NCBI RefSeq assembly: GCF_024218775.1
Contig: NZ_CP100404.1
Location: 2,542,001 to 2,606,000 of the forward strand
Reading direction: 5' to 3'
Length of the DNA stretch: 64,000 nt
From: Haloarcula marina
GTDB lineage: Archaea > Halobacteriota > Halobacteria > Halobacteriales > Haloarculaceae
A program made the translations under genes and the position numbers. This document shows positions 47,905 through 55,374 of this stretch, piece after piece (the first letter of the stretch is position 1; every line of letters begins with the position of its first letter). Under the pieces are notes generated by a model. The model did not search any database and had not been told where the DNA came from. It was given only the letters and a program-made list of their open reading frames with translations.

Positions 47905-48471
47905 ATGAACGAAGACAGCCGCAGCTACGTTTCCGGTGCGGTCGTCGGCGTCGCCGCGTTCGTCATCGCGTACGTACTCGTGTACGCGATGACCATCTCG
48001 GTCGTGCGAGAATCGATGCTGACGGGCCTCGCGGAGGCCTTTGGCGACGAGAACGCCGCGTGGAAAATCGTCGGCTGGGTGTTCTTCAACGCCCAGTTCG
48101 TCACGACGACTATCACCGTCGACCTGCCGCTCGTCGGCGGCACCGAGGCGGTGAATCTCATCAACGAGAGCGACGCGTTGTCGCCGGTCCTGTACCTGAT
48201 TCCCCCGGCGCTATTGACTGTCGCAGGCATCGCCGTCGCGCGTCTCGACGGCACCGTGGAGACCGCACGAGCGCTCCGCGTCGGGCCGTCGGTCGCCCTG
48301 GGCTACCTTCCGCTCGCCGTCGTCGGCGCGTTCCTGTTCACCGTCAGCGTCGGCGAGGGGAGCGGTGGCGCTCCCGACATCCTGACCGCCGTCGTCCTCG
48401 CCGGGGTCGTCTATCCCGTCGTGTTCGGGACGCTCGGGGCCACCGTCGCCACGGCAGTCTCCGGCGACTGA
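47905..48471 (+). CDS. DUF7978-type haloarchaeal membrane protein
   Basis: This 188-residue protein has about five hydrophobic helices, one very near the start (VVGVAAFVIAYVLVYAM), with a lone polar middle region. I recall similar haloarchaeal proteins as DUF7978, low certainty. GCATATACC about 34 bases upstream is a TATA candidate. It is divergent from rfcL, with no known function. Confidence 0.68.
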   Translation: MNEDSRSYVSGAVVGVAAFVIAYVLVYAMTISVVRESMLTGLAEAFGDENAAWKIVGWVFFNAQFVTTTITVDLPLVGGTEAVNLINESDALSPVLYLIPPALLTVAGIAVARLDGTVETARALRVGPSVALGYLPLAVVGAFLFTVSVGEGSGGAPDILTAVVLAGVVYPVVFGTLGATVATAVSGD

Positions 48472-48516
48472 CGCCCGACCGAGCGTTTATCAGACAGGAC
48501 CGGACCAACCCCGGTC

Positions 48517-49131
48517 GTGGTATCGCCACGTCTGACCGACCTCCCGGGGGACGAAAGCGGTGTGAACAGAGCGGTTACACCACTCGTCGCCGTCGTCCTA
48601 CTGGTCGGCCTCACGGTCGTTCTCGCCGCCTCGGTAACCGCCGCGAGCGTCGGCTACGCCGCCGAGTTGCGCGAGCGCGCACCGACCGTCTCGCAGTCCG
48701 CCGCCGAGTACGAACGGTACGCCGCGGGCGGCGGCCGCTACGCCGACCACGTGATTCGCCTCACGCACCTCGCCGGAGACACGCTGACCGTCGCCGACCT
48801 CGAACTCGTCGTGGACGCGAGCGACGCCTGCGGGAAGGTCGGTCGCCTCGTGAACGTCCCCATCGCGGGCGACGACCCCGTTCCGACCGAGCGGTACGTC
48901 CGCGGCGACGACGTGTTCGACAACTCGTACAACGCCGTCGAAGGACCGATAGGCACGGGCGACGTGGACGACGACGGCGAGTGGAGCGCCGGCGAGACGG
49001 CCCAGTTCCGCCTCGCGAGCGGTGACTGCCCGCTCCGCGACGGCGACCGCCTGACCGTTCGCGTCGTCCACGCGCCGACGAACGCGGTACTCGTGGCGGA
49101 GACGATTCGAGTCCGTTCCGGGTCACGCTGA
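48517..49131 (+). CDS. Type IV pilin-like protein
   Basis: The 204-residue protein carries an archaeal prepilin N-terminus: GVNRAVTPLVAVVLLVGLTV fits the class III signal (RAVSPxxGVxL-type) and the hydrophobic polymerisation helix. The rest is a beta-rich ectodomain with two Cys (DACGKVG and SGDCPLR) that could form a disulfide. Start GTG 48517 is chosen because a TTTATC box sits about 30 bases upstream; a shorter GTG at 48562 is possible. No pilus assembly genes are adjacent. Confidence 0.8.
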   Translation: MVSPRLTDLPGDESGVNRAVTPLVAVVLLVGLTVVLAASVTAASVGYAAELRERAPTVSQSAAEYERYAAGGGRYADHVIRLTHLAGDTLTVADLELVVDASDACGKVGRLVNVPIAGDDPVPTERYVRGDDVFDNSYNAVEGPIGTGDVDDDGEWSAGETAQFRLASGDCPLRDGDRLTVRVVHAPTNAVLVAETIRVRSGSR

Positions 49132-49182
49132 AGCCCACCGTTTCGGTACGTTTTTATTCCGGTGTCGCCACCTTGTCAATCA

Positions 49183-49890
49183 ATGACAGGCGGCGCGCGC
49201 GGAGAACTCGCCGAGAAGATAGCAGGCGAAGTCGCGCTGAGCGACGCCCCAGGTGCGACCCTGCGGAAGTGGCGCACCGACTTCGGCGTCGCCCAGACGG
49301 AACTGGCCGAGCGACTCGACGTGTCCCCCTCGGTGGTCTCGGACTACGAGAGCGGCCGCCGAGACAATCCGGGTATCGGCGTCGTCCGTCGACTCGTCGT
49401 GGCCCTCCTGGACATCGACGAGGAGCGCGGCGGCGACCACATCCGCCAACACGCCCGCGTCCTCTCCTCCGGGTTCGACAGCGACGTGGTCCACGACCTG
49501 CGCGAGTACAGCGCCAACGTCCCCGTCGACCGGGTGTACGACGCCATCGACGCCGAGGAACTCCACCGGGGCGGCACCGACACCGTCGCGGGTCACACCG
49601 TCATCAACTCCATCGCCGCCATCACCCGCCTCTCCTCCGACGAGTTCTACCAACTGTACGGCCAGTCGACCAACCGCGCGTTGGTGTTCACGAACGTCAC
49701 CCGCGGCGAGTCGCCGCTGGTCGCTCTCCGAGTCGTCTCGCCGACTCCGAACGCCGTCATCCTCCACGGCCTCGACGGGGACGCCGTGTGGGACCGCGCC
49801 GCGGACCTCGCCCGAATCGACGACTTCTCGCTCGCGGTGACGAACGCCGATTTAGCGGACGTGCTCGACGGATTGCGCGGCCTGCCGTAA
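49183..49890 (+). CDS. XRE-family transcriptional regulator
   Basis: The 235-residue protein has a Cro/C1-type HTH (LRKWRTDFGVAQTELAERLD then VSPSVVSDYESGRRDNPG, about residues 28-65). The C-terminal domain of about 150 residues has a FTNVTRGESPLVALRVVSPT segment like the archaeal COG1395 group (from memory). ATG 49183 sits 28 bases after a TTTTTATTCC box. It follows the pilin gene but has its own promoter. Target unknown. Confidence 0.85.
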   Translation: MTGGARGELAEKIAGEVALSDAPGATLRKWRTDFGVAQTELAERLDVSPSVVSDYESGRRDNPGIGVVRRLVVALLDIDEERGGDHIRQHARVLSSGFDSDVVHDLREYSANVPVDRVYDAIDAEELHRGGTDTVAGHTVINSIAAITRLSSDEFYQLYGQSTNRALVFTNVTRGESPLVALRVVSPTPNAVILHGLDGDAVWDRAADLARIDDFSLAVTNADLADVLDGLRGLP

Positions 49891-49907
49891 GAAGTAGGGG
49901 ACGGCGT

Positions 49908-51122
49908 TCAGAGCGTGACCAGCAGGTCCGTCGCGTACATCACCGCGAGCCCCGCGAAGAACGCGAGGAGGTTCGCTGGCGTGACGAGCGACCCGCGACG
50001 GCGAACCATCCGCCCGATTTCCCAGTTCACCTGCAGGATGGCTCCGACGCCGATGGCGAGAAAGAGCGCGCCGAGCGTCGGTGAGTAGGCGGCGCTCCCT
50101 ATCCACCCGCCGAAGATGACTGGTGCGCCGGCGAGCGTACCGAGTGCGACGAAGTGCCAGAGCGACGGCCGCTCGCCCTCGGCGACGGGCGCGACCACCG
50201 CCGGACCCTCGGTGACGTTGTGAATCATGAAGCCGACGACGAGGAACGCACCAAGCGAGACGTGCCCGAGCGCCACCGAACTCCCGATTGCCAAGCCTTC
50301 GGCGAGGTTGTGCAGGCCGATAGAGAGGGCGACGAGATAGGCGAGTCCCAGCGGCCGCACATCTCCGGCACTGTTCCACTCCGAGACGGCCTGTACCAGC
50401 AACAGCGCACCGAGGATTCCGAGAACCACTAGCAGATTGCCCTCGAAGGCGCCGGGAACTTCCGCCGCCAACTCGAACGCCTCGAACCCGGCGTCGAACG
50501 CCAAGAATCCGAGGACGCCGACGGCGAACAGCAAGATGGCGTGCAGGGAGCGGTCGCTCATGTCCCGCATGACCGGGAACCACAGCATTCCCAGCGCGAC
50601 GGGGATGACGCCGACGAACAGGCCGACGACTGCGAGCAGACCCAGCAGTTCACCGGTCAGTCCAGGGGACACCTGCGGCGCGACGATGGTGTGCCCGAAC
50701 GTCGCGCCGTCACTGAGGACGAGGGCAGTGTGGATGTCCCACGTCGGCGTCCAGTGGTACGGGACGACGATTCGGCCGCTCTCCATCGGGGCGAGCGTGT
50801 TCGTCGCTTCGCCACCCGCGAACATCGTGAAGTCCCAGTACGCGTCGTTGACGAGTACCTGGCTGACCGTCACCGGGTCCGGGCCGTTGTTCGTCACGTG
50901 GAGGACGACTGTCTCGTCGTTCGGGAGCGACGTGTGGGTCACCGTGACGTCGGGGAGCGCACCGCCCGTCGCCAGTCCGGCGAAGGGGTTGAGCAGGACG
51001 AATCCGGCGACGACCACCCCGAGCAACACCAGCGGCGTGACGGCACCGACCCACCGCGGGAGGCCGAACGGCATCCCCGTCCGAGAGACGGCCTCGCCGC
51101 CGTCCGTCCGTCGGTCGCTCAT
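49908..51122 (-). CDS. ZIP-family metal transporter with extracytoplasmic beta domain
   Basis: The 404-residue membrane protein has one N-terminal helix, a beta-sandwich-like segment of about 85 residues outside the membrane (about 55-140), and then a ZIP channel of about eight helices. The two ZIP metal-site motifs are visible: GLHNLAEGLAIGSSVALG and GFMIHNVTEGPAVVA. ATG overlaps the preceding oxidase stop (ATGA), so it is the second gene of an oxidase-transporter operon. The metal is not determinable (zinc, iron, manganese or copper); the neighbour suggests copper or iron handling. Confidence 0.88.
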   Translation of the reverse strand: MSDRRTDGGEAVSRTGMPFGLPRWVGAVTPLVLLGVVVAGFVLLNPFAGLATGGALPDVTVTHTSLPNDETVVLHVTNNGPDPVTVSQVLVNDAYWDFTMFAGGEATNTLAPMESGRIVVPYHWTPTWDIHTALVLSDGATFGHTIVAPQVSPGLTGELLGLLAVVGLFVGVIPVALGMLWFPVMRDMSDRSLHAILLFAVGVLGFLAFDAGFEAFELAAEVPGAFEGNLLVVLGILGALLLVQAVSEWNSAGDVRPLGLAYLVALSIGLHNLAEGLAIGSSVALGHVSLGAFLVVGFMIHNVTEGPAVVAPVAEGERPSLWHFVALGTLAGAPVIFGGWIGSAAYSPTLGALFLAIGVGAILQVNWEIGRMVRRRGSLVTPANLLAFFAGLAVMYATDLLVTL

Positions 51123-52369
51123 GCTTGCACCTCGAAGAAACTCATCCAGCCCAGTTCGGCGAACTCCGACTGGTGCGCGTGGAACATGTACAACCCCGGG
51201 TCGTGGTCGGAGTAGTCCAGTTCGACGATGCCGCGCTGTGCCTGACACTGCATGATGGTGTCGATCGTCTTGTGCGTGGGCATGAGCGTCGTTCCGTGGT
51301 CGTAGTAGTCGAAGAACTGCGAATGGGAGTGGAACGAGTTGACGAGGTCGAACTCGATGGCGTTGATGAGGTACACCCGCTGTCGCTGGTCGCGCTGAAT
51401 CTGTATCGGCTTGACCGTCTCGCCCGCCGACCACTCACCGTTCTCGGCGTCGGTCGACCCGACACCGTAGGCGAAGGCGCGCGTGTTCGCGGCGTACACC
51501 TCGTTGTCGCCGTCGAAGTTGGTGTCGAAGCCGTTCATCACCATCACCATCTCGTCGACTTCGTCGGCGCGGTACTCGTGGTTGCGCAACTCGGCTTCCT
51601 CGACCAGTTCCGCGCGCAGGTCGTCCGTCATCGGCCCGTGGTAGTTGACGTACTCGCGGGGGTTCTGCCGGACGCGTTCGGGGTCGGGGTCGATAATCAT
51701 CGCCCCGTAGAGACCGCGATGGATGTGCTCTTTCAGCGGCATCGAGTGGCAGTGATAGAAGTGACAGCCCGCGGGTTGGGCCTTCCACTCGTAGACGAAT
51801 CGTTCACCCTGTTCGATGACTCCCGGGCCGTTCTGCGGAATCCCGTCCATCCGCGGGTTGACGTTCTTCAAGTGCGGGTGGATGGTGTGCGGGTGTTCCT
51901 GCCCGTTCGAGAACCGAATCCGGATGAGTTCGCCTTCGACGGCGCGGAGCGTCGGGCCGGGCACTTGCCCGTTGTATGTCCACGCAGGGAACGTTACCCC
52001 GGGCGCGATTTCGATTTCCCGAAGGGTCGCGTTCAACTCGAACTCGCGGACTCGCTGGCCGCCTTCCATCTTCACCGTCCCGGTCCTGAACTCGCGGAGG
52101 TACTCGTGGGGGTCGAAATCCGCCGACTGGAACTCCCCGACGACGCCAGCGCGACCGTGTGGGGAGGTGTCGCCATGGTCACCGGACGCGCTGGCCCCCC
52201 CGGAGAGACCCACCGCACTCGCTCCCGCGACCCCGAGGCCACCGAGCACGGCCCGTCGACTGACTGCCGCATCGTTTTCGACCGCGGCGACGAGTCGGTC
52301 GGTGAGCGATTCGGTGAGTTCTGCGGCGTCTTCACGTTCGCCGGTCGCCCGCGACCCTTCGTCAGACAT
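51119..52369 (-). CDS. Secreted multicopper oxidase, two-domain laccase-like
   Basis: The 416-residue protein has a Tat signal (SRRAVLGGLGVAGASA) and two cupredoxin domains. Copper ligands: HPHTIHPHL, HCHSMPLKEHIHRGLYG, FHSHSQFF and FHAHQSEF. The type 1 Cys is in the first domain, as in NirK-like and type C two-domain oxidases; the last motif has HAH rather than HCH, so domain 2 has no type 1 site. The trinuclear cluster histidines appear complete. It overlaps the ZIP gene. The substrate (Cu(I), Fe(II) or phenolic) is unknown. ATG 52369 or 52408 are both possible starts. Confidence 0.9.
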   Translation of the reverse strand: MSDEGSRATGEREDAAELTESLTDRLVAAVENDAAVSRRAVLGGLGVAGASAVGLSGGASASGDHGDTSPHGRAGVVGEFQSADFDPHEYLREFRTGTVKMEGGQRVREFELNATLREIEIAPGVTFPAWTYNGQVPGPTLRAVEGELIRIRFSNGQEHPHTIHPHLKNVNPRMDGIPQNGPGVIEQGERFVYEWKAQPAGCHFYHCHSMPLKEHIHRGLYGAMIIDPDPERVRQNPREYVNYHGPMTDDLRAELVEEAELRNHEYRADEVDEMVMVMNGFDTNFDGDNEVYAANTRAFAYGVGSTDAENGEWSAGETVKPIQIQRDQRQRVYLINAIEFDLVNSFHSHSQFFDYYDHGTTLMPTHKTIDTIMQCQAQRGIVELDYSDHDPGLYMFHAHQSEFAELGWMSFFEVQA

Positions 52370-52446
52370 CACTCCGCACCGTCCTCGGAACCGGTCCACC
52401 GAGCGCACTCGACAGAGTGGCGTTTTTAGACAATTGCATATCTATA

Positions 52447-52462
52447 TTTAGATGCATCTAAA
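52447..52462. promoter_or_regulatory. Perfect 16-bp palindrome (metal-repressor operator candidate)
   Basis: TTTAGATGCATCTAAA is a perfect dyad that sits against a TATA-like AAATATAG on the minus strand, so a bound repressor would block the promoter. The gene start is 78 bases (or 39 from the alternative start) downstream. It resembles DtxR/IdeR/MntR-type operators in length and A/T arms. Control of the oxidase-ZIP operon by a metal-responsive regulator is inferred. Confidence 0.6.
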
Positions 52463-52630
52463 GTAAAAATGTACCGGTAGGGAGACTGGTCGTGTTCGAC
52501 CGCTAGACCGACAATAATACCGGTTCTACGCAAGCGTCACCAGTATCTCGTCAGTCAGCGGTAGGATAGAACGGTTCGAAAATGAAACCTCGCCGTTCCG
52601 GTACGAGGTTCTTTCCTTCGGTCAGAAATT

Positions 52631-52713
52631 CGCTACTTCTCACGGGGTCGCTACTGCTTCCCGTTCACCATTCGAGACCCTCGCTTCGGTCGGCGTCTCG
52701 CTACTGCTCACGG
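52631..52713. repeat. Imperfect repeat CGCTACTTCTCACGG-like, three copies
   Basis: Copies at 52631-52645 (CGCTACTTCTCACGG), 52649-52663 (CGCTACTGCTTCCCG) and 52699-52713 (CGCTACTGCTCACGG). They lie just past the stop of HMG-CoA synthase. Spacing is 18 and 50 bases. They could be a remnant repeat element or part of a terminator-like structure. Confidence 0.5.
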
Positions 52714-52765
52714 TTTCCCGTCGGTTATCGCGTCGCTTCGAGGGCCGCGCTTCACGCGCCCCTCG

Positions 52766-54103
52766 CTACTCCACGTACCGATACTTCCGCTCGCCCATCC
52801 GCCCCCATCCGTCGAACACGAACTCCGCTTCCGGCGCGGTGAACTCCTCCACGTCCGCCTCCGTATCGTGGTTGTGCACGTCGTGAATCTGCTCGTACTC
52901 CTCGAACGAGAGGTCGTACCGGTTGCGGTTCTGTTCGTCGATGTTCAACTGGGCGATTTCCTCCTCCCAGCCCGGGACTACCGTCTCCGCGTGGACTTCC
53001 GCCTGCGCGCCCGACCCGTACGAGGCGACGAGCAGTTGTTTCTCGTCCAAGTCACGGCCGTGCTCGCGGGCGTGTTTCAGCCCGGCGACGCGGGCGATGT
53101 GGACCGACCCAGTGTACCAGTTACCGACGTGCCGGGAGAGTTCCAGCGTCGGGTCGATGGTGTCCGCGTACCAGTCCTTGTACCGCTCCGTCTCGGTCAG
53201 CGCGTCGGTGTACTCGCGGATGGCATCGCGGAAGGCGTCGTCGCTCTCGAAGTCCTCGCGCATCGGTTGATGGCCGATTTCGGCGGCGACAGCTTCCTCC
53301 ACGTCGGTACCGCGGATGATGTGTCGGTAGCCGAGTGCGGCGGCCTTCCGGACCATGCCCGGGAACGGCGTGTGGAACGGGATGAGTTCGTAGTCCTCCG
53401 GGTGAATCTCACCGGCCACCGCTGCGAAGTCGTCCAGCGCCTCGCGCATCCGAGCGAGGTAGACGTTCACCGAGCGCTTGCCGTCGACGGAAGGGAACTG
53501 CTGGTTGGGCTTGAGGAAATCCGTCTCGTCGGCGCTGCCGAAGCCCTGTTCGGGCGAGAGCTCGACCAGACTCGGGTCCTCGTCGACGAGCATCGCGACG
53601 GCACCGGCCCCCTGGGTCGCCTCGCCCGGGTCGTCGCGGGCGTACAGCGCCGTGTCGGTGGCGATGACGATGGCAGCCCGACCGCGGTTGCGACCGGCGC
53701 GAATCCAGTTGTAGGCGTCGTCGAGGCTCTGCGTGCCAGCGATACAGGCGAACTTCCGTTCGCCCTTGTTGGCGTGGTGGAAGTCGCCGTCGTACACCTG
53801 TTCGAGACAGCCAGCGACGTACGTCGAAACGGGCTTGGAGTTGTCGAAGGAGGACTCGGTGGCCACGTCGATGCGGCCGATGTCGTCCGGTTCGAGTCCC
53901 TTCCGCTCCATCAGTCGGTGCGCGGCGTTGGCCGCCATCGTCACGATGTCCTCGTAGACGTCCGGGAACGACGAGGCGTGCAGGCCCAGTCCCTTCGTGT
54001 ACTTCCCAGGGTCGTCGCCTTGGGCGGGCGCGAACGTCTCCGCGAGGTCGAGTTTGAGCTTTCCTGTCCGTATCTCGATGGCGTCGATACCGACTTCGGT
54101 CAT
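52766..54103 (-). CDS. mvaS: Hydroxymethylglutaryl-CoA synthase
   Basis: This 445-residue enzyme condenses acetyl-CoA and acetoacetyl-CoA for mevalonate and isoprenoid lipid synthesis. The catalytic Cys120 lies in KFACIAGTQSLDDAY, the general base Glu83 in VATESSFDNSKP, and the pair HTPFPGMVRKAAALGYRH and GNWYTGSVHIARVA are family signatures. ATG 54103 is preceded by TATACGT about 27 bases upstream. A long frame reaching 54334 is an extension without homology. Confidence 0.95.
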   Translation of the reverse strand: MTEVGIDAIEIRTGKLKLDLAETFAPAQGDDPGKYTKGLGLHASSFPDVYEDIVTMAANAAHRLMERKGLEPDDIGRIDVATESSFDNSKPVSTYVAGCLEQVYDGDFHHANKGERKFACIAGTQSLDDAYNWIRAGRNRGRAAIVIATDTALYARDDPGEATQGAGAVAMLVDEDPSLVELSPEQGFGSADETDFLKPNQQFPSVDGKRSVNVYLARMREALDDFAAVAGEIHPEDYELIPFHTPFPGMVRKAAALGYRHIIRGTDVEEAVAAEIGHQPMREDFESDDAFRDAIREYTDALTETERYKDWYADTIDPTLELSRHVGNWYTGSVHIARVAGLKHAREHGRDLDEKQLLVASYGSGAQAEVHAETVVPGWEEEIAQLNIDEQNRNRYDLSFEEYEQIHDVHNHDTEADVEEFTAPEAEFVFDGWGRMGERKYRYVE

Positions 54104-54212
54104 GGAGAAACGGTCACTACCGACGTATAAGGGCTTGTCGACTAGACGTTCGACGACCGTCGAAACACGCGTCGGCGAACATTCATCTGTCCCGGTCGCA
54201 GACACCACAGCA

Positions 54213-55374
54213 GTGTCGCTGTTGAAGCCGCTGACGCCGCCCGACGTTCTCTTTATCTGGAGCGTCGCGTGTTTCGTGGGCGGGACGCTTCTCGGTCGTC
54301 GCCGCGCTGACACGCCCGGCCACCTCGTCCTCACCCTCGGTTGGGTCGGGTTCGCCGCGTTCTGGACCGTTTCGGCCGAGACGTATCGCCCACAGTCGAG
54401 CCTTCCTCGGGGCGGTGAGCGGGCTGACAGCGCTTCTCAGCGCGTACGCCGCGACCCTCGCACTCCGCCGGAAGGCCCCCTATCGACGACTCACTACGGC
54501 GTTTGCCATCATGGGCCTCCTGTTCGTTCCGTACCAATTCCTCCTCCCCGTCTTTCACGGCGCCCTCCGACTCGTCACCGCACACACCGTGTGGGGCCTC
54601 TCGATGTTGGGCTTCGCCCCGACGGTCGAGGTCGGTGTGACCGGACAGCCGACCGCGCTCCGGTTCCCCGCGGCCCGGTACCTCCGCTACAACATCATCT
54701 CCGCGTGTACCGGTATCAGCGCGACCACGCTGTTCGCGGGGCTGATAGGGGCCGCCGACGCACCGCTGAAACGCCGGGTCGGCGTGGCTCTCGCCACCTT
54801 CGGGTTCGTCTACTGTATGAACATTCTCCGGACGGTCATCGTCGGCGGTGCAATCGGCGGACCGTGGTTCGCCGCCACCGCACCGCTCACCACGGTGCTG
54901 TTCGGCGTCGAACGACCCGTACTCGTCTCGTTTTACTTCGCCGAGTACCTGCTCGTGCAACTGCTCGTCGTCCTCGTGTTGCTGGGCGTGTACGCCGCCG
55001 TCGTCCGCCAACTCCCGAGCGTCCAACGACTCGCCGACGACGACCCCACCACGAACGTCGCGTCGTACCTCCCGTCGACGTTTCCGTCGGTCAGGGCCAC
55101 CGTTCCTGCGTCGAAGTCTTCGGCATCGACCGTCACGGTCTGGACAGTTGTCGTGGCGTCCGTCACCGTCACCGTCACGTCCGAACCAGGCCCGACGACG
55201 CCGTCACCGTCCCCGTCAGAGAGCACCGGCGACGCGATGGCGGGCGGCGTTCCGTCGGCCGTCACCGCGCCGGTCGTGGCCGTCCCGAGGGTCCCCGAGG
55301 CGTCTCTCGCTTGTACGGTCACCTGCGGTGGACCGTCACTGAGAACCGGACCCGCGGGGAACGTCGCGTCGTAG
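54213..55374 (+). pseudogene. Archaeosortase-family protein, apparently frameshifted
   Basis: The N-terminal part (GTG 54213: SLLKPLTPPDVLFIWSVACF, two membrane helices) is in one frame and stops being membrane-like near 54385; the main part (from about 54390, RAFLGAVSGLTALLSAYAAT) is in another frame. The main part has the sortase signature: SACTGISATT with the nucleophile Cys, then Arg residues in KRRVGVALATFGFVYCMNIL and R-T-V, and several membrane helices. The product would cut and lipid-anchor surface proteins. The frame runs to 55374, but the tail past about 55050 looks like antisense to the next gene. Either a real disruption or a sequencing error. Confidence 0.65.

Follow-up and report, generated by a model that had tools for sequence, protein, structure and literature searches.

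Why would a cell place a secreted oxidase and a metal transporter in the same transcription unit, and which metal do the two proteins handle? The question is raised by 2 adjoining genes of Haloarcula marina, one for a multicopper oxidase (MCO) and one for a ZIP-family transporter, within the 64,000-nucleotide stretch analyzed here (the window; contig NZ_CP100404.1, positions 2,542,001 to 2,606,000). A counterpart is known from ammonia-oxidizing archaea (AOA), for which the adjacency of MCO1 and a ZIP permease (NVIE_000600/NVIE_000590), a Fet3-like mode of working, and an assignment to copper have all been published (PMC7785015, PMC5767755, PMC7819960). In Nitrososphaera viennensis, copper limitation leads to a modest rise of MCO1 and its ZIP (PMC7785015). 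A second puzzle comes from Pseudomonas putida GB-1, where manganese oxidation raises cellular manganese by a route without known mechanism (PMC3798386).

We argue that the MCO–ZIP pair is, on balance, probably a manganese-starvation import module, in which the ZIP would bring in Mn(II) and the oxidase, probably held by the outer domain, would condition the metal at its mouth. This reading offers a testable answer to why cells couple metal oxidation with manganese supply, the question left open in P. putida GB-1 (PMC3798386). It also bears on a pair so far noted in ammonia oxidizers as copper uptake, which proves to be tightly kept far beyond them.

The oxidase and its ZIP partner

The coordinates of the 2 genes and their features are collected in Table 1. 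Reading frames confirm the positions and the ATGA junction given in a preliminary description of this DNA; the single metal-handling operon proposed there is supported. No RNA families were found in positions 48000–54500 of the window.

Table 1. Features of the MCO–ZIP locus (positions in the window).
Feature	Position	Strand	Basis or remark
Operator palindrome TTTAGATGCATCTAAA in the MCO promoter, beside an A/T-rich TATA-like stretch	52447..52462		Perfect palindrome
Multicopper oxidase gene (MCO), 416 aa	51119..52369	minus	Reading frame, Cu-oxidase domains
MCO twin-arginine signal region SRRAVLGGLGVAGASAVGLSGGASA	52184..52264	minus	Sequence; R38 R39 invariant in 15 copies
HTIHPH: type 1 His161, trinuclear His164/His166	51872..51889	minus	Invariant 135/135
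HCHSMPLKEHIHRGL: Cys207, His206/208, His215, axial Leu220	51710..51754	minus	135/135 except 217, 220
HSH: trinuclear His347/His349, domain 2	51323..51331	minus	Alignment, 135 copies
HAH: trinuclear His397/His399, domain 2, without type 1 Cys	51173..51181	minus	135 copies
ATGA overlap, MCO stop/ZIP start	51119..51122	minus	TGA 51121-51119, ATG 51122-51120
ZIP-family transporter gene, 404 aa, with extra N-terminal helix and outer domain	49908..51122	minus	
Extra N-terminal membrane helix TM0, residues 23-44	50991..51056	minus	AlphaFold model
Outer beta-sandwich domain, residues 56-152, FlaF/FlaG-like fold	50667..50957	minus	Q88, W124, G139 invariant
HNLAE metal-site motif, residues 271-275	50298..50312	minus	H271/N272/E275 invariant 135/135
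HNVTE metal-site motif, residues 301-305	50208..50222	minus	H301/N302/E305 invariant 135/135

The oxidase carries Cu-oxidase_3 and Cu-oxidase_2 domains, both above the Pfam cut-offs (PF07732 at residues 119–229, PF07731 at 306–414). Domain 1 holds all of the type 1 ligands (H161, C207, H215, and L220); in domain 2, the HSH and HAH motifs are present and the type 1 Cys is missing. Across 135 paired copies, the trinuclear histidines (164, 166, 206, 208, 347, 349, 397, and 399) are invariant, the axial position 220 is Leu in 108 and Met in 27, and position 217 is His in 126 and Gln in 9. Free Mn(II) is hard to oxidize for a simple type 1 site. The closest solved relatives, 7rab and 3gdc, are type C enzymes of the same build, with 2 domains and the type 1 site in the first; 7rab aligns over nearly the entire mature length (E 2e-111). 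They differ in that both entries hold the oxidase alone, with neither a ZIP partner nor Mn-type control in their descriptions. The signal region scores 12.6 bits against the NCBIfam TAT model, below its cut-off of 16.7; no lipobox was seen in it, and on sequence reading the oxidase has no membrane anchor of its own. Its sequence thus marks it as a predicted Tat-exported, type C two-domain multicopper oxidase, and the alignment bears out the original claim of a secreted enzyme with a complete trinuclear set and the type 1 site in its first domain.

By sequence, the transporter is a weak match to its family: it scores 17.8 bits against Pfam Zip (cut-off 35.1), falls below the ZupT cut-offs as well, and is only remotely similar to BbZIP (E 0.003). 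Its AlphaFold model (mean pLDDT 81) matches the BbZIP structure 7z6m (E 4.7e-7, TM 0.74 on the target) and presents, in order, the extra N-terminal helix, an eight-strand beta-sandwich spanning residues 59–146, and 8 membrane helices. The eight-helix fold and the H-N-x-x-E motifs on 2 helices, here helices 4 and 5, are shared with BbZIP/ZupT-type carriers; the N-terminal helix and outer beta-sandwich set the window protein apart from them. Judged by modeled fold and metal-site residues, the transporter is of ZIP (SLC39) type. The model upholds the beta-sandwich beyond the membrane that the preliminary description had read, and the loss of metal-site residues that would have counted against that description does not occur, as these residues are kept in every paired copy.

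Modeled alone, the outer domain reaches a pLDDT of 95. Its fold is like that of FlaF and FlaG, stator proteins of the archaellum (Z 11–12), a likeness that implies no function. Copper-chaperone-like folds (PCuAC, PmoB) were considered for it and matched less well (Z 7–8 versus 11–12). A conserved metal site in this domain is not supported either, as H63, H75, and H123 are common among the haloarchaeal copies and not kept in bacteria.

Distribution of the pair

A search of 391 haloarchaeal genomes with both proteins recovered 65 full-length copies of the ZIP, spread over 57 genomes, and 66 oxidases from 58. Each of these 65 ZIP genes comes immediately after an MCO gene of the same orientation; the matched stretches lie −1 to 122 bases apart, and chance pairing is excluded. 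The one unpaired oxidase (G277, L193:6876-8957) has its gene cut by a TnpB-type (transposon) insertion, with no ZIP found adjoining; every intact haloarchaeal copy found is therefore paired. The long frame at this locus had been considered as an MCO–ZIP fusion, which was rejected in favor of the interrupted oxidase gene, and no fusions occur among the 80 bacterial loci introduced below. A further 77 haloarchaeal ZIP hits match the membrane part only in nearly all cases, being mostly short ZIPs without the outer domain, and none lies beside an oxidase except one fragment of a split paired copy. From these sequences, the outer domain appears restricted to oxidase-paired ZIPs. Genomes with a short ZIP seldom have the pair (3 shared; hypergeometric P 0.014, relatedness ignored).

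For a wider view, the 7rab oxidase served as query against bacterial and archaeal species; bacteria ranked first, and the 80 loci retrieved are all bacterial. A ZIP adjoins the oxidase in all 80, with the match extending into the outer domain in 79. The range of the pair thus takes in haloarchaea, proteobacteria, actinobacteria, cyanobacteria, Deinococcota, Chloroflexota, and Bacilli, often on plasmids: records of plasmid-borne pairs come from Rhodococcus, Arthrobacter, Rubrobacter, Deinococcus, Bacilli, cyanobacteria, and rhizobia, and from Haloterrigena turkmenica and other haloarchaea. Distances among oxidases and among ZIPs co-vary (r 0.966 in haloarchaea, 0.766 in bacteria, far above permutation), which argues that both are inherited and transferred together. 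The gene pair sought in the preliminary description is therefore conserved. Its statement that similar pairs occur in ammonia-oxidizing archaea stands, the counterpart being published (PMC7785015, PMC5767755); the pair is not confined to archaea, being widespread in bacteria, and so reaches much further than that description supposed.

One genome of the window's genus (G368; contigs C32, C36, and C37) holds 4 copies of the pair on 3 contigs, which suggests repeated gain. Short C-terminal remnants of the paired ZIP, 57–72% identical, persist at G227:C11:21787, G388:C14:45864, and G036:C5:77931, where the genome or the site has no intact copy.

Operators and regulators

The DNA ahead of the pair speaks to its metal. 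In the entire 3.74-Mb genome, TTAGAYNNRTCTAA occurs 3 times: before the MCO–ZIP pair, before a DtxR/MntR-like gene followed by a GDT1-family transporter, and before a ZnuA-type ABC importer (substrate-binding protein and ATPase). The pattern TTAGANNNNTCTAA is exact in 29 of 57 haloarchaeal MCO upstream regions and has 1 mismatch in 14 more, that is, 43/57 against about 0.6% in shuffles (0.04% exact, 0.5% with 1 mismatch); in most other copies, the palindrome lies about 700 bases upstream, ahead of a same-strand DtxR gene that precedes the MCO.

Genome-wide, 59 haloarchaeal genomes contain 55 operator sites compared with 7 for the reversed pattern. We read 29 of these sites, and 28 precede metal transporter, DtxR, or MCO genes: 11 stand before an ABC importer, 10 before GDT1 (9 of these with DtxR), 5 before a many-helix transporter, 1 before an oxidase, and 1 between a DtxR gene and a short ZIP; the last has none of these. 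Short ZIPs without an oxidase have the operator, with at most 1 mismatch, in 14 of 20 cases, which means that the ZIPs of this regulon do not all depend on oxidation. The regulon also holds exporters (GDT1), and membership by itself is therefore no proof of import. The 2 many-helix transporters that were checked belong to the NF037962 family ("arsenic efflux protein"; L238:251-1483 and L239:251-1483, both on the minus strand, with similar ones in L235, L240, and L246). That such genes stand behind a Mn-type operator in several haloarchaea may point to a function of the family in manganese handling.

A DtxR-family gene adjoins 28 of 58 haloarchaeal pairs; the window's genome has about 5 PF01325 genes above cut-off, so that chance adjacency would amount to only a few tenths of a percent. 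These regulators score below the MntR equivalog cut-offs (about 213 versus 350 bits; NCBIfam), and may therefore sense Fe or Zn; on sequence reading they show the pattern MEDY...LEHHIS, not the Met/Cys of DtxR. Leyn and Rodionov (2015) reportedly compared DtxR regulons across Archaea, so the haloarchaeal operator may already be published. The set of genes behind it fits the control reported in Halobacterium NRC-1, where SirR is a Mn(II)-dependent repressor of an ABC manganese importer (PMC3600143). The regulon resembles known SirR/MntR manganese regulons in its DtxR-type regulator, ABC metal importer, and operator palindromes. It differs in the MCO–ZIP pair, a member not found in the literature searched; that search, with subscription papers mostly outside it, returned nothing linking the pair to MntR or manganese.

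Bacterial pairs show regulation of the same kind. A DtxR/MntR-type gene adjoins 20 of the 80. The 5 proteobacterial neighbors tested all exceed the MntR equivalog cut-off (193–213 versus 153 bits; NCBIfam); those of Trueperaceae and Chloroflexia are DtxR/MntR-like and below cut-offs. In the records of Sinorhizobium meliloti and Sulfitobacter pontiacus, a gene annotated as mntR diverges from the pair, and in those of Rubrobacter, Rhodococcus, Arthrobacter, and Deinococcus, a gene near it is labeled "metal-dependent transcriptional regulator". Boxes of the form TAGCNNNNGCTA, which we take to be typical of MntR, stand ahead of 21/80 bacterial pairs (0.5% in shuffles). Two unrelated operator types, in 2 domains of life, would thus lead to the same regulator class, and probable Mn-type control of the pair extends to several of the phyla named above. 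Where the preliminary description had listed Cu, Fe, and Mn as candidates and singled out none, regulators and operators favor manganese; the promoter DNA indicates that the pair serves manganese supply, not copper.

Mechanism and competing metals

In the mechanism we propose, the manganese regulon would include the MCO and ZIP genes as a single transcription unit. When manganese is low, a DtxR/MntR-like (SirR-type) repressor would leave the palindrome and both proteins would be made. The oxidase would leave the cell folded, via Tat and without its own membrane anchor, and the beta-sandwich domain would hold it at the outer face of the ZIP; retention is the simplest role for the domain, because it occurs only with the oxidase and the oxidase is anchorless. 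The ZIP would import a divalent metal, most likely Mn(II). Since short ZIPs of the regulon work without an oxidase, the enzyme would add to import rather than enable it. More speculatively, it may oxidize a metal at the importer's mouth, with Fe(II) as the preferred candidate because the ZIP would otherwise admit Fe(II) and Fe(II) is easily oxidized; its removal by oxidation would make import selective for manganese. The main alternative within the manganese reading is a Fet3/Ftr1-like hand-over of oxidized Mn(III), and Cu(I) oxidation is another option.

A tentative generalization, which we hold to be rather doubtful, is that the enzyme acts as a selectivity filter wherever the pair occurs: the docked oxidase would oxidize Fe(II) (or Cu(I)) at the mouth, leaving Mn(II) as the only metal to enter through a broad ZIP channel, and this scheme for manganese acquisition would be conserved across bacteria and archaea, AOA MCO1-ZIP included. 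If true, it would reassign the copper-labeled MCO1-ZIP of ammonia oxidizers. Compared by description, that system is alike in its two-domain MCO with a Leu axial ligand beside a ZIP permease (PMC7785015, PMC5767755); it differs in its assignment to copper and in being reported as an MCO lineage confined to Thaumarchaeota. The manganese reading would call into question both the copper and the hydroxylamine role that have been suggested for MCO1 of ammonia-oxidizing archaea.

Copper is nevertheless the foremost rival metal. The oxidase would turn Cu(I) into Cu(II) for uptake or detoxification, with the ZIP importing Cu(II) or merely traveling along, as proposed for AOA MCO1-ZIP (PMC7785015, PMC7819960). 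Several neighbors suit this reading. A small plastocyanin-type blue-copper lipoprotein is encoded directly after the ZIP in 42/58 haloarchaeal loci (e.g., L153:9047-9469) and could exchange electrons with the oxidase; CopA-like ATPases occur in 16 haloarchaeal neighborhoods; and some bacterial pairs adjoin MerR, ArsR, CDF, or P-type ATPase genes, which, like the blue-copper protein, could point to copper or electron transfer. We regard a copper role as unlikely, given that the operator is common to Mn/Zn-type ABC importers, GDT1, and the DtxR/MntR-like gene, not to copper genes, and that the neighbors in several bacterial phyla are DtxR/MntR-type genes. The blue-copper protein was itself considered as a conserved third core gene; it is common, yet absent at the window copy, and so falls outside the core.

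Iron import after the manner of Fet3/Ftr1, with the ZIP replacing Ftr1 and Fe(II) being oxidized and handed on as Fe(III), is quite improbable. In yeast, the metal of Fet3-Ftr1 is iron, and the oxidase has 3 domains and its own membrane anchor. The window pair likewise joins a multicopper oxidase to a metal permease and is alike only in its possible working mode, the permease being a ZIP rather than a member of the FTR1 family. Beyond this shared logic, iron is favored by DtxR-family regulators able to sense Fe and by the surroundings of some haloarchaeal copies, which include DUF7405 (weak DyP peroxidase match) and DUF7350 (weak Fe2+ transport match) proteins, found 2–5 kb downstream of the pair at L203, L155, L154, L156, L161, and L206. 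Against it stand the metal site of the ZIP, which is the divalent type of BbZIP-like carriers; the proteobacterial regulators, which exceed the MntR cut-off and not an iron-regulator one; and the placing of the iron-type neighbors, 1–5 kb distant and at a minority of pairs.

The weakest contender, a Mn(II) oxidase that stores or detoxifies manganese outside the cell for the ZIP to recover, thereby linking oxidation to uptake, matches the Mn-type regulation of the pair and has a precedent in P. putida GB-1, where intracellular manganese rises after oxidation by other MCOs (PMC3798386), but is very improbable for an enzyme whose simple type 1 site is poorly suited to free Mn(II) and which, if detoxifying, should be Mn-induced, not Mn-repressed.

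Besides this oxidase, the genome encodes 2 more multicopper/NirK-like proteins (G000:C1:2338643 and 3118956), with only 26–35% identity to it over the matched part.
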